Source of the DNA: an uncultured Bacilli bacterium
GTDB taxonomy: Bacteria; Bacillota_I; Bacilli_A; RF39; UBA660
Length of the DNA stretch: 33,229 nt
Direction: 5' to 3'
NCBI GenBank assembly: GCA_944363835.1
Contig: CALVVJ010000005.1
Span: 1 to 33,229, forward strand
Below are positions 3,122 through 33,229 of this stretch, piece by piece. The stretch's first letter is position 1. The number at the start of each line of letters is the position of its first letter. The translations under genes were made by a program, and so were the position numbers. The notes below the pieces were generated by a model. It saw nothing but the letters and a program-made list of their open reading frames with translations, did no database searches and was not told where the DNA came from.

Positions 3122-5251
3122 TTAACCCAAATTAACTTCCACTACTTGGTTACTTCCATTATGAGTATAAGTTAAAACTAATACGTTACCATTTAAACCA
3201 TGTTTAAGTTCTTTAGCATAATCTTTACCATCGATAACAATACCTAAATCTTTAGCTAAATCGACATTACCAGCAGCAAATGAATAAATACCAACTTTAT
3301 TACTACTATCTACAGTAATATAATATTTTTCTTCCATAGCAATATACTTATATTCACTACTTACTATACTACCATCTAAATCATAAATAAGATAATTATC
3401 ACTAGACTTAACTAAAATATAATCTCCCTTATAATCTACTATTTCATTTTTAGTTGTAATATTTTCTGTTATTTCCTTACCTTTAGTATCATATAAATGA
3501 TATGTTCCATCACTTCTTTGCATCAATATATTACCATTTAACCCAGATGCTTTCGTATTAGTATTACCATCACTATCTTTAAACGCTATAATACCTGTAA
3601 CAGAACTAGATTCTATATTGACTAAACCATAAGAATCGCTAGTATTTTTAGCTAACACTACCGTACCAGCCGTTTCTACAAAATTAATCTTATTTTCATT
3701 ATTATAATACTTAGCATCTACTTCTTTATATGTCGCCAGTTTTTTATTATTTTTTAAATCATATAAAATTATATTATCATTAGCACCAGGTCTTGAAGTA
3801 TCTGCTATAAATACAAATCGTTCATTATATATTGGTAAGTATCCTAAATTAGGATTATCTTCTTCTTTAAATATATTACTTTCTTTAGCAATAAAGCAAT
3901 TTGTAAGATCTGTCGTTGTATCCGTTACATCATTAGCATAATTACATGCATAACTACCTAATACTTCTGTCTTTTCAGCATCTTTATAAAAATATAATTT
4001 TCCTTGAAAATAACTATAATATTCTTGAGTCTTATTAAATTTACCTTCATTCAAATTGACATCATAATATTCTTCATCCCATTCAAGTCTCAATGTATTA
4101 CCATTAACATACGCATCAAATGCTTCTTCTTTTCCAATTTGAACTAATTCATCATTAAATATTAATTCTGTATTATATTTATTACTATTAATTCTAATAC
4201 CTTCCATCGTCATTGGATCTACTTCATTATCAAAAACAAATAATCTTTTATTATCAACAGCAATTATATAAGCATCGACAAATCGTATATAATCATATTC
4301 TTCTTCGCTTTGTCTAACACCTTGATAATTATATATATAGTAATCTCCATCTATTTTAACACTTATATTACTACCATTAAAATTCTTTATTTCTCCAGGA
4401 ATATTCTTACTAACTTCCTTACCTTCTAAATCTATTAAAATATAATTTTTATTATTTGCGCCAACTATAGCATCACTATCTTGTATATATCCTAAATAAT
4501 CATAATCAAAATCAATTAAATTATCTACTCCATCTGTACTAAATACTAAAGTTCCATAATTACTTTCCAAATTCTTAACTATTACTTTATCTTCACTTAC
4601 TTCTTTAACTAATTCATATTCATCCATTACTTCCTCTGATTCAATATTATATAGTTTAACATTACCATCTTCTACTACTGTATTATCATAGACAAACACA
4701 TAGTTATCTAAAATTATATCACTACGAAAATCAACTGGAACTCCATTTTCATAAACATTCTTACTTACATCAAATTCATCTTCATTACTATAATATGCTA
4801 CATAACATAATTCATCATCTTTATTAGTACATTCATATTGTCCTAATTCTTCATCATTTTCTCCTAAAAAGACTAACCAACCATCTTCATAACGATAATT
4901 ATCTTTTTCTACTATTACTAATGGTTCTTCTGGTTTCTTATTTTCCTCTTTATCATCTTTCTTAAATACTAAGAACCACAAAAGAACTCCAACTATAATT
5001 AGAAGAATTATAACTCCAAACATAATAATAATTGTCTTTTGTTTCTTAGTTAACTGACTCCATTTACTAGGACCCTTAACTTTCTTTTCTTTCTTCTTTT
5101 TCTTTTTACCATCTTCTGTATCAGTTACTTCTGGCATATCATATTGCGTATTTGTTATTTCCTCATTTTCATCAATTTCTACAATTTCATTCTTTTCCTT
5201 ATTTTCTTCTTCATTTTTCTTAATTTCATTTAGGATATCATCTTCTAACAT
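3122..5251 (-). CDS. Large membrane-anchored WG-repeat-like protein
   Basis: 709 residues. The N-terminal ~65 residues are cytoplasmic and highly charged: an acidic first half, then a lysine cluster (GKKKKKKEKKVKG). One transmembrane helix follows at about 72-95 (KTIIIMFGVIILLIIVGVLL), and the long remainder is extracellular. That part has repeated short beta units of the kind YxLVNIE...GIIAFKD, YGTLVFSTDG, YYIYNYQG, YLIYDLDGSIVSSEYKYI and YHLYDTKGKEI, resembling diverged WG repeats, probably folding as propeller-like blades. The last stretch (LNGNVLVLTYTHNG) matches the style of the downstream gene. The start has GGAGG seven bases ahead of ATG, and a possible -10 (TACAAT, 5277-5282) lies just upstream. 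No catalytic motif is visible. It is first in a two-gene operon. Confidence 0.75.
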   Translation of the reverse strand: MLEDDILNEIKKNEEENKEKNEIVEIDENEEITNTQYDMPEVTDTEDGKKKKKKEKKVKGPSKWSQLTKKQKTIIIMFGVIILLIIVGVLLWFLVFKKDDKEENKKPEEPLVIVEKDNYRYEDGWLVFLGENDEELGQYECTNKDDELCYVAYYSNEDEFDVSKNVYENGVPVDFRSDIILDNYVFVYDNTVVEDGNVKLYNIESEEVMDEYELVKEVSEDKVIVKNLESNYGTLVFSTDGVDNLIDFDYDYLGYIQDSDAIVGANNKNYILIDLEGKEVSKNIPGEIKNFNGSNISVKIDGDYYIYNYQGVRQSEEEYDYIRFVDAYIIAVDNKRLFVFDNEVDPMTMEGIRINSNKYNTELIFNDELVQIGKEEAFDAYVNGNTLRLEWDEEYYDVNLNEGKFNKTQEYYSYFQGKLYFYKDAEKTEVLGSYACNYANDVTDTTTDLTNCFIAKESNIFKEEDNPNLGYLPIYNERFVFIADTSRPGANDNIILYDLKNNKKLATYKEVDAKYYNNENKINFVETAGTVVLAKNTSDSYGLVNIESSSVTGIIAFKDSDGNTNTKASGLNGNILMQRSDGTYHLYDTKGKEITENITTKNEIVDYKGDYILVKSSDNYLIYDLDGSIVSSEYKYIAMEEKYYITVDSSNKVGIYSFAAGNVDLAKDLGIVIDGKDYAKELKHGLNGNVLVLTYTHNGSNQVVEVNLG

Positions 5252-6610: not shown

Positions 6611-8056
6611 CTATGCTCCAGTCAAAATTCTATATGGATTTCCTTGGGACCCATCACCACTTGAAAATTCTACACTAGACTCCAGATAGAAGGACGGGCG
6701 CACGCCGTAGCCGTAGTAGTTGCTCACGCCGCTGCTGTTCACAGTACCGAGAATCACGATGAACGCATGAGACGTATCGTCCGAATCGCGGGAAATTGTC
6801 CATTCTGTTATTCCTATATTCATCCAATCTGAACTCTTTGCTGGTTCATAATTATACAACTCTGTTGTCCAATAACTTGGATCTGCTGCATATCCATAAT
6901 CCGACACATACATTAATCCTATTTTTGCACTATATGTTGTACTACTTGAACTACTTCCTAATTCCGTTGTATAGTATTGTTTTGCTGTATTTGTTTGGCT
7001 CCATGCCATTCCCCCTACTTTCCAGCTTGTTGTTGCTATCAAGTTACTCCATGTACTTCCTAATCCATTCAAATATGTTCCATTTAATGTTCCTGTATTT
7101 AATGTACTACTACTCCATGTATTACTACTATTCGAACTTGATCCGCTCCAATCATTATTTCCTATACTTGTATTTTTTATCAATTTTACTTGATTTCCAA
7201 ATACTCCGATTATTCTGTATAGGTTATCTGCTGGACAACTTGCGGCATCACTTCCAAAACATACATAATTATTTGGATTTGCACCTGCATATCTGTATGA
7301 TTCATCTCCAGCTTCTTGTGCTCCGTATGTTCCACTTCCATCATGGTAATATAAATCATTTACACCGTCTTCTGTATATAAATTTGTTATATATGTTGCA
7401 AAATTTCCTAAACTTGTTGTCATTGGTTCTTTTTGAATTATTAATTCTGCACTAAAACTTTTTCCTGTATTTTCATTTTGATCACTATCTAAGTTTACAA
7501 ATATTACTTCTATCTTCCATTCTTGCGTAACTGTACCAGTTGATACTATTTCATAATTATCTGCTATCGTGATAAGACCTATAGATGTTGTTATATCAAA
7601 GCCTGATACTCCTCCACTAGTTACATAATTATATCCATCTAATGTTGTTACTTCACTTCCTTCGGGATTTGTTATTTTAAGTAACATCTCTGCTTGATTA
7701 TCTTCTGTTGTATATACAAAATCATTACTTGTAATATTTAAATATACATAATAATTTCTTGTAGCAATATTTGTTGCATTATTGGCGGTTAATATTGCTC
7801 TTGCATATGTTTCACCACTTTTATTACCCATTCCACTTCCAAAGTCTTCTTGGTTTGCAGTTAAACTTATTGCATTACCTACTTGGAATGATAAGTTATC
7901 GGTAGTATTTGTTGTTGCATTAACATTGATATTCCCTGTTCCCCCACCTTGAGCTGTGAAATATGCATATGTTGCTCCAACTACTACTGCAATAAAAGTT
8001 AACACACCTAAGAACGATAACGCTAATACTTTCTTTTCATTTGGTTTCTTTTCCAT
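6611..8056 (-). CDS. TasA/SipW-type surface protein with C-terminal lectin-like variable domain
   Basis: 481 residues. The N-terminus is a SipW-type signal: a lysine-rich head, a hydrophobic core (about 9-30) and the cleavage-region pattern GATYAYFTAQGG, as in TasA/camelysin-like exported proteins. Residues ~30-210 are a beta-rich, Thr/Asn-rich domain. Residues ~215-481 match, from memory, the aromatic/Gly/Ser-rich C-terminal domain of gut Bacillota surface proteins (DUF6273-like, C-type-lectin or formylglycine-enzyme-like fold), with NLYRIIGVFGNQVKLIK and the closing GYGVRPSFYLESSVEFSSGDG. Codons ~420-459 are GC-rich and G/C-ending, unlike the rest of the gene, as in a DGR variable repeat. 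The AAGGAG site lies 12 bases before ATG, which is rather long; an extended -10 (TGTTATACT, core 8092-8097) lies upstream. Likely role: surface binding with diversified ligand specificity. The role is inference. Confidence 0.85.
   Translation of the reverse strand: MEKKPNEKKVLALSFLGVLTFIAVVVGATYAYFTAQGGGTGNINVNATTNTTDNLSFQVGNAISLTANQEDFGSGMGNKSGETYARAILTANNATNIATRNYYVYLNITSNDFVYTTEDNQAEMLLKITNPEGSEVTTLDGYNYVTSGGVSGFDITTSIGLITIADNYEIVSTGTVTQEWKIEVIFVNLDSDQNENTGKSFSAELIIQKEPMTTSLGNFATYITNLYTEDGVNDLYYHDGSGTYGAQEAGDESYRYAGANPNNYVCFGSDAASCPADNLYRIIGVFGNQVKLIKNTSIGNNDWSGSSSNSSNTWSSSTLNTGTLNGTYLNGLGSTWSNLIATTSWKVGGMAWSQTNTAKQYYTTELGSSSSSTTYSAKIGLMYVSDYGYAADPSYWTTELYNYEPAKSSDWMNIGITEWTISRDSDDTSHAFIVILGTVNSSGVSNYYGYGVRPSFYLESSVEFSSGDGSQGNPYRILTGA
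6681..6796 (-). other. Putative DGR variable repeat inside the surface protein gene
   Basis: A hand count gives about 57% G+C over 6681-6795, in a gene and genome that are clearly AT-rich. On the coding strand, 18 consecutive codons from GTG AAC AGC to TCC TTC end in G or C. Nearly every residue in the presumed variable positions has a codon ending in C or T (GAC, GAT, CAT, CTC, GGT, AGC, GGC, TAC, AAC). Adenine-specific mutagenesis of AAC/AAT codons in a template repeat would give exactly this. The block ends in an invariant-looking GGC GTG CGC CCG TCC TTC TAT at the C-terminal lectin-like core, where DGR variable repeats usually sit. No reverse transcriptase or template repeat lies in this window, so the cassette would have to act from elsewhere. 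Confidence 0.65.
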
Positions 8057-32696: not shown

Positions 32697-33229
32697 TCAA
32701 TATATAACAAAGGGATTACTAATAGTTCCATTTCCACTAATATTTACACTAGACTTTAAAGAAATAACAGGTCTAACACGTGCAGAATTACCATTAAGCA
32801 ATTCATCTTGTATATAAGAATCTCCTTCTGAAACAGCAATGGACATATAAGAATAATTTTCATGGTAATAAGCAGGTGTCATTGTCCAATACCAAGACCC
32901 CATTGACAAATATAAACTAAGATTATGCTTCCACCAAATTCCTCCTGCAAAAACTAACTCATCTGCAGTAATTAGTCCCACTGGATATTTTAAGTCGCCA
33001 TTTGTAGGCAAATCATTTATATTTTCTGCCACACTAAATCTATCATTAATTTGATTACAAGTCAATTGAGGTTTATTATTTGTCGCAAATCGTAATCGAT
33101 CATATGCTGCATAAGTAGCAGAATTACTACCGTATGCATTTCCCTTTGATATACTTCTATCATTACAATATATCGCATCTGCAACATACATGCTATATCC
33201 TTTATTTAATATATTTATTTCATACCAAT
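32697..33229 (-). CDS. C-terminal part of a second surface protein (lectin-like C-domain), 5' end beyond window
   Basis: The frame is open to the window edge: in front of the first internal Met it reads WYEINILNKGYS, so this is a partial gene, not a 164-residue protein. The visible ~177 residues have the aromatic, Asn-rich style of the DUF6273-like/lectin-like domain. These include SYATYAAYDRLRF-type segments, a CNDRSIS stretch, SWYWTMTPAYYHENYSYMSI, and a closing ARVRPVISLKSSVNISGNG that aligns with GVRPSFYLESSVEFSSGDG of the 6611-8056 protein. Unlike that protein, its coding DNA stays AT-rich throughout this region, so it is not an obvious DGR target. The N-terminal part, presumably with an export signal, is outside the window. 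Confidence 0.8.
   Translation of the reverse strand, partial: WYEINILNKGYSMYVADAIYCNDRSISKGNAYGSNSATYAAYDRLRFATNNKPQLTCNQINDRFSVAENINDLPTNGDLKYPVGLITADELVFAGGIWWKHNLSLYLSMGSWYWTMTPAYYHENYSYMSIAVSEGDSYIQDELLNGNSARVRPVISLKSSVNISGNGTISNPFVIY

Follow-up and report, generated by a model that had tools for sequence, protein, structure and literature searches.

A predicted lectin-like gene of an uncultured Bacilli bacterium as a probable remote target of a diversity-generating retroelement

The gene at positions 6611-8056 (minus strand) of the window, a 33,229-nucleotide stretch of contig C5 from an uncultured Bacilli bacterium, is almost certainly a remote target of a diversity-generating retroelement (DGR). 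Its 3' end would be replaced in trans by cDNA made from a template of the type we call TR3, through the action of a DGR reverse transcriptase (RT) and Avd. The original prediction, made from the sequence of the window alone, had proposed just such a remote target. It had also remarked that neither an RT nor a template lies in the window, which is the case; RTs, Avd genes and an A-rich template (C46:76-124) are all present elsewhere in the source genome, a draft of 1.18 Mb in 99 contigs that is 90% complete. A genome lacking both a repeat and a DGR RT, which would have counted against the prediction, is therefore not what we find. The process would begin with a non-coding template of TR3 type, rich in AAC and AAT, ending in GGCGTGCGCCCG and followed by structured RNA. 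The RT and Avd would copy the template RNA, errors would arise opposite its adenines, and the mutated cDNA would replace a matching stretch of 100 bp at the 3' end of a target gene far from the template. AAC and AAT codons would in this way become varied NNC and NNT codons within a lectin-like domain. One TR3-type template would serve at least seven genes in the genome, and the RT serving it would be either RT2, encoded on contig C71, or one absent from the assembly.

The composition of the gene changes abruptly near its end. The gene as a whole has a G+C content of 0.35 and the window one of 0.29, but the value is 0.50 over codons 421-440 and 0.62 over codons 441-460. The third position is G or C in 12/20 and 18/20 of these codons, against 0.205 for the whole gene. 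Codons 439-456 are exactly 18 G/C-ending codons in a row (GTG AAC AGC AGC GGC GTG AGC AAC TAC TAC GGC TAC GGC GTG CGC CCG TCC TTC); at a GC3 of 0.205, such a run has a calculated expectation of about 4e-13 per starting codon. These counts bear out the G+C-rich block and the codon run of the original prediction, as they do its reading that variable residues sit almost always in codons ending in C or T: NNC and NNT codons encode nearly all the variable residues of the target. The variable repeat (VR), ATTTCCCGC...GGCGTGCGCCCG, occupies 6695-6796 on the minus strand within a G+C-rich block at 6677-6796, near the 3' end of the gene (which ends at 6611) and inside a predicted C-type-lectin-like domain. 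Its G+C-rich 3' end, GGCGTGCGCCCG (6695-6706, minus strand), is common to the VR and to TR3. Directly past it the two part, with TCCTTC in the VR and AGACCT in the template. By its position, this point of divergence lies where an initiation-of-homing site would be expected, and it is a candidate for one.

A DNA search of the genome found a VR of this type in six further genes (on C7, C16, C18 and C41, and two on C3), making seven in all. The copies differ from the template mostly at its adenines; they are largely alike at ATTTCCCGC, TTCGGAC, GCGTTC, GTG and GTGCGCCCG and differ between these blocks. Some 30 paralogues of the window gene, partial or full, exist in its own genome and allow a broader comparison, with alignment scoring that does not favor adenine mismatches. 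Among 24 paralogue ends, the G+C-rich copies (mostly 0.49-0.57) fit one of the three templates of the genome at non-adenine sites; the tabulated window-type VRs, at a G+C of 0.51-0.57, are changed at a fraction of only 0.06-0.19 of these. Most of the A+T-rich ends (mostly 0.28-0.41), which are linked to no template and serve as a negative control, mismatch the templates at about 0.5 of the same sites. An exception, C3c, has a G+C of 0.54 and yet matches TR1 only loosely. Since the G+C-rich ends fit a template and most A+T-rich ends do not, the composition of the VR is largely the mark of a DGR-linked copy. A second lectin-type C-terminus (NSARVRPVISLKSS) is encoded in the window at 32697-33191, minus strand; it is A+T-rich and linked to none of the three templates.

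TR3 was found by searching the genome with the expected template, in which AAC and AAT are placed at the variable codons. It is a repeat of the sort that the original prediction had proposed looking for, differing from the VR mainly at template adenines. Its 3' part, GATAATGTGAACAACAACAACGTGAACAATAATAACAACGGCGTGCGCCCGAGACC, lies at C46:76-124, is A-rich and falls in no listed open reading frame. The 3' half alone is present in the assembly, at the start of the contig, the cut falling within the 5' half. Congener G012 has the homologous template in full, flanked by a target VR upstream and by a MutS-like gene, Avd and an RT downstream. The C46 and G012 loci hardly differ up to the template end and along some 130 bp of tail; past this they diverge, leading into the DGR genes in G012 and into a guanylate-kinase-like gene in C46. 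None of the MutS-like, Avd and RT genes found in G012 stands next to TR3 on C46, and there is no dedicated RT3 in the assembly. The two other templates of the genome, TR1 and TR2, each lie in a cassette with an RT and Avd.

The full VR of the window gene can be compared with a template from another species, that of G012, over two ungapped stretches. Here 14 of 29 adenines are changed against 2 of 46 other bases (p = 1e-5), and 14 of the 16 changes fall at codon positions 1 and 2. Set against the TR3 part of its own genome, in an alignment that favors adenine mismatches, the VR differs at 9/20 adenines and 2/28 other bases, with one extra codon. Because of this one-codon length difference and the two non-adenine changes, the window VR was not written by exactly the TR3 part on C46; five of the genome's seven VRs are shorter than TR3 by a codon at that place. 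Transfer in trans to C5 would have come from C46 or from an unassembled copy.

Three genes of the genome encode RVT_1 proteins (on C1, C71 and C4), two of them inside DGR cassettes. DGR1, on C1, consists of a small MutS-domain-I-like gene, Avd, the RT, TR1 (locus L049, 1854-1946) and a target whose VR lies at 3325-3417; this VR is changed at 13/34 adenines of TR1 and at 0/59 other bases. DGR2, on C71, runs from the target through TR2, a MutS-like gene and Avd to the RT, with 18/27 adenines changed against 3/57 other bases. DGR-type RTs have the motif I/LGxxxSQ in place of QGxxxSP. The enzymes of C71 and C1 carry IGNMTSQ and IGNQSSQ, respectively, and match phrog_1423 at E = 2e-65 and 2e-55, which identifies them as of DGR type. 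The Avd assignments are below threshold: NF033474 gives E = 9e-10 and 4e-8, both under its curated cut-off of 80 bits, and bAvd (PF22296) gives E = 6e-6, also under its cut-off, while the PHROG family 'Avd protein of DGR' was matched for a congener. Among solved structures the G012 RT matches 8ub7 best (E = 1e-21); we take this to be the BPP-1 enzyme. No recent phage origin is implied: identity is 25-35% to the closest RTs on viral contigs and about 28-34% to the best-listed phage RTs. As for the third RT, on C4, we discarded it as a candidate driver, since it is retron Ec107-like and not of DGR type; it adjoins a CTP-synthase-like gene (L001 1240-2187, G000:C4). A VR nearly identical to a TR2-type template, and so almost unmutated, was seen in a coding target of another genome (L250, G005:C39, 67-157).

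What the three templates share is the RNA that follows them. The stretches that follow TR1, TR2, TR3 and 19 congener templates can be aligned and fit a common fold. Of its 31 pairs, 23 have changes on both sides, and 95.9% of cells are paired, compared with 77% after shuffling and 40-51% for slid controls. A covariance model built on it finds exactly three such elements in the genome (on C1, C46 and C71), at least one in 24/30 genomes of the genus, and further examples in 13 more genera of the family; Rfam holds no family for it. TR3 retains this tail whole (E = 1.8e-21 with the covariance model), which argues that TR3 was, and may still be, used in trans.

Whether the copying continues is the question behind the main rival, itself a special case of the DGR explanation: the VR was written in the past, TR3 has since been broken by an insertion sequence (IS), and the copy in the window is now a frozen relic that no longer changes. 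The 75 bases before TR3 (L056, G000:C46 1-75) are 85% identical to part of an IS-type transposase-like gene on C52, so that TR3 begins directly after a transposase fragment; the templates of G010 and G015 likewise run into IS-like sequence. Also in line with this reading, no RT adjoins TR3, and each of the seven VRs shows small mismatches to it. However, the structured tail of TR3 is whole, two intact RTs are encoded in the genome, and the VRs are still open and G+C-rich, without the drift of the unlinked paralogues. A repeat present in eight copies also naturally breaks contigs, and the junction may be an artefact of assembly. We regard a frozen relic as a serious possibility, though we lean somewhat against it. 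Several genomes have IS-like sequence abutting a template or VR at a comparable place, namely at L056 (G000:C46), L254 (G015:C33), L253 (G010:C19) and L249 and L250 (G005:C34 and C39); either IS elements have repeatedly inserted into templates, or the assemblies broke at repeats.

Recent rewriting is visible at a homologous locus in congeners. One genome represents each species in our set, and so the comparison of near-identical loci is that of the congeners G002 and G007. Their DGR loci have the same template and differ by no more than one change per 100 over most of 3 kb. Their VRs differ at 24 sites, all 24 at template adenines (24/24, p = 6e-14), and each VR has 0/62 changes from the template at other bases. 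These differences show recent rewriting from a TR3-type template. Scale comes from G012, where 18 VRs belong to one template and, with neutral alignment scoring, 352/666 adenines are changed against 61/1116 other bases. In linked, near-identical loci of other metagenome-assembled genomes (L180 and L190) divergence amounts to 33% in the VR, 13% upstream of it and 3% farther downstream; two unlinked near-identical loci from such genomes lack this picture, with differences of 0-4%. The G002/G007 target also has a second strongly variable block outside the VR (L068 about 600-790, compared with L069), unmatched by the template.

That second block, left unexplained by the template, is one of the points in favor of gene conversion among the roughly 30 paralogues, which would shuffle the C-terminal block with no retroelement involved; the number of paralogues and the differing lengths of the VRs are others. 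Conversion would copy sister VRs, though, and would not confine changes to the adenines of a non-coding template as seen between G002 and G007 and in DGR1, and we consider it very improbable. A horizontally acquired G+C-rich piece or a local codon bias, with no hypermutation, would account for the compositional contrast alone, but the template has the same G/C-ending codon design and the VR copies depart from it mainly at its adenines, so that this last idea is in effect refuted.

The remote DGR target of the window is an open reading frame for a probably exported two-domain protein of 481 amino acids. At its N terminus is a signal or membrane segment (7952-8056, minus strand) with a SipW-type look (VGATYAYFTAQ), which has no profile match of its own in Pfam or NCBIfam. 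The genome encodes a SipW-type signal peptidase, on C6 (TIGR02228, 102.9 bits against a curated cut-off of 51.85), making export of the protein likely. The original prediction had called it a TasA/SipW-exported protein. This part of the prediction is less well supported: the TasA label is not established, with no match of the window protein to the TasA/M73 or SipW-cognate families of Pfam and NCBIfam. The segment is followed by an all-beta, jelly-roll-like domain (residues 50-212; 7421-7909, minus strand), predicted as a beta sandwich. It resembles many unrelated beta sandwiches weakly (VIA-align Z of 5-6.7), the TasA fibre 8aur (Z 5.0) and Ena2A (Z 5.2) among them.

The C-terminal domain (residues 216-481, about 266 residues; 6614-7411, minus strand) is the one that carries the VR. 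It was modelled alone, from 71 sequences, because Foldseek with the full-length model was uninformative except for 9qa6; the model has a pLDDT of 94.9. Its top solved-structure match is again 9qa6, the N-terminal domain of the Thomasclavelia ramosa IgA peptidase (Z 17.6, 201 residues, rmsd 2.7, 20% identity), followed by Legionella Lcl (Z 6.2) and several C-type lectins, animal ones included (Z 4.6-5.7). The model and this match support the C-type-lectin-like domain predicted near the C terminus. Known DGR variable proteins such as Mtd are absent among the structure matches listed for the domain, which is no evidence against the assignment. Sequence searches of the protein against Pfam, NCBIfam and PDB sequences returned nothing useful, and weak 'nebulin' matches were taken as noise. 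The protein would be displayed at the surface and bind a ligand. The syntenic counterpart in G012 (L177 5293-6804, with the same neighbors) keeps the lectin domain and has a different VR. Its N-terminal domain is also different, an instance of domain swapping at the locus.

Templates themselves multiply in related genera. In G167 a tandem array of 13 template modules, each a TR with its structured RNA, lies on the minus strand (L288, G167:C11:9500-18500) at a spacing of 270-306 nt and adjoins a target gene with a VR. Aligned with one another (two of the 13 are cut short in the alignment), these templates differ in 60/378 adenine columns against 27/666 others, and the neighboring VR combines features of different templates, as if it were a mosaic. 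G170 has at least four templates behind one RT (L289, G170:C50, at 2344, 3002, 3295 and 3966). A literature search found no description of arrays of this kind, which is not proof of their absence. More speculatively, the DGR may have separated in this family into two parts, an enzyme of RT, Avd and MutS-like protein that acts in trans, and independent template-RNA modules recognized by their conserved fold. One enzyme would then serve several templates and each template many dispersed surface lectins, and templates would multiply and drift at their adenines, up to arrays of 13, as a library for rewriting targets. We put this forward as a possible scheme only.

Several known systems offer points of comparison. 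DGR targets typically have C-type-lectin folds with the VR at the C terminus (PMC8144416). The DGR of Treponema denticola (TvpA family) has one TR and up to seven dispersed targets (PMC4891356); as here, it is chromosomal, with one template for several remote lectin-fold targets and adenine-biased differences. Unlike it, our genomes have up to 18 VRs per template (G012), two to three template types each and a MutS-like gene in the cassette, and in the assembly no RT accompanies TR3. Thiohalocapsa PB-PSB1 has nine DGRs, with 15 targets of conflict-system type and 21 VRs, and action in trans (PMC10907252). It shares with our case several DGRs per genome, incomplete loci, targets explained by trans-acting templates and transposons around the loci, whereas here the targets are exported two-domain proteins and the genome is about 1.2 Mb. 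Bordetella phage BPP-1 has the same components (RT, Avd, TR and VR) and a structured spacer RNA 3' of the TR, which folds and recruits the bRT-Avd complex (PMC12875486); it differs in having a phage tail fibre as its target, in cis, and in having no MutS-like gene. The T. ramosa domain, the closest solved fold to our variable domain, is called C-type-lectin-like by its authors and belongs to a protease, and the available portion of that paper does not describe it as a DGR target (PMC12237041).

Remote DGR targets are already known, and the window gene adds one. Cyanobacteria have 76 of them (PMC7517822), individual templates have dozens of VR copies in one survey (PMC6642488), and a global survey of DGRs on metagenome contigs states that remote targets were undetectable for it (PMC8144416). 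The fan-out is unusual, and so is a template located away from its RT; this separation and the template arrays of related genera are the less expected parts. The findings suggest that the number of DGR targets has been undercounted. In an uncultured Bacilli genus with small genomes, one to three templates supply large families of exported lectin-like proteins, and adenine-only rewriting is visible between near-identical loci. This makes it possible to test retrohoming in trans, how a template is chosen and what its structured RNA does.
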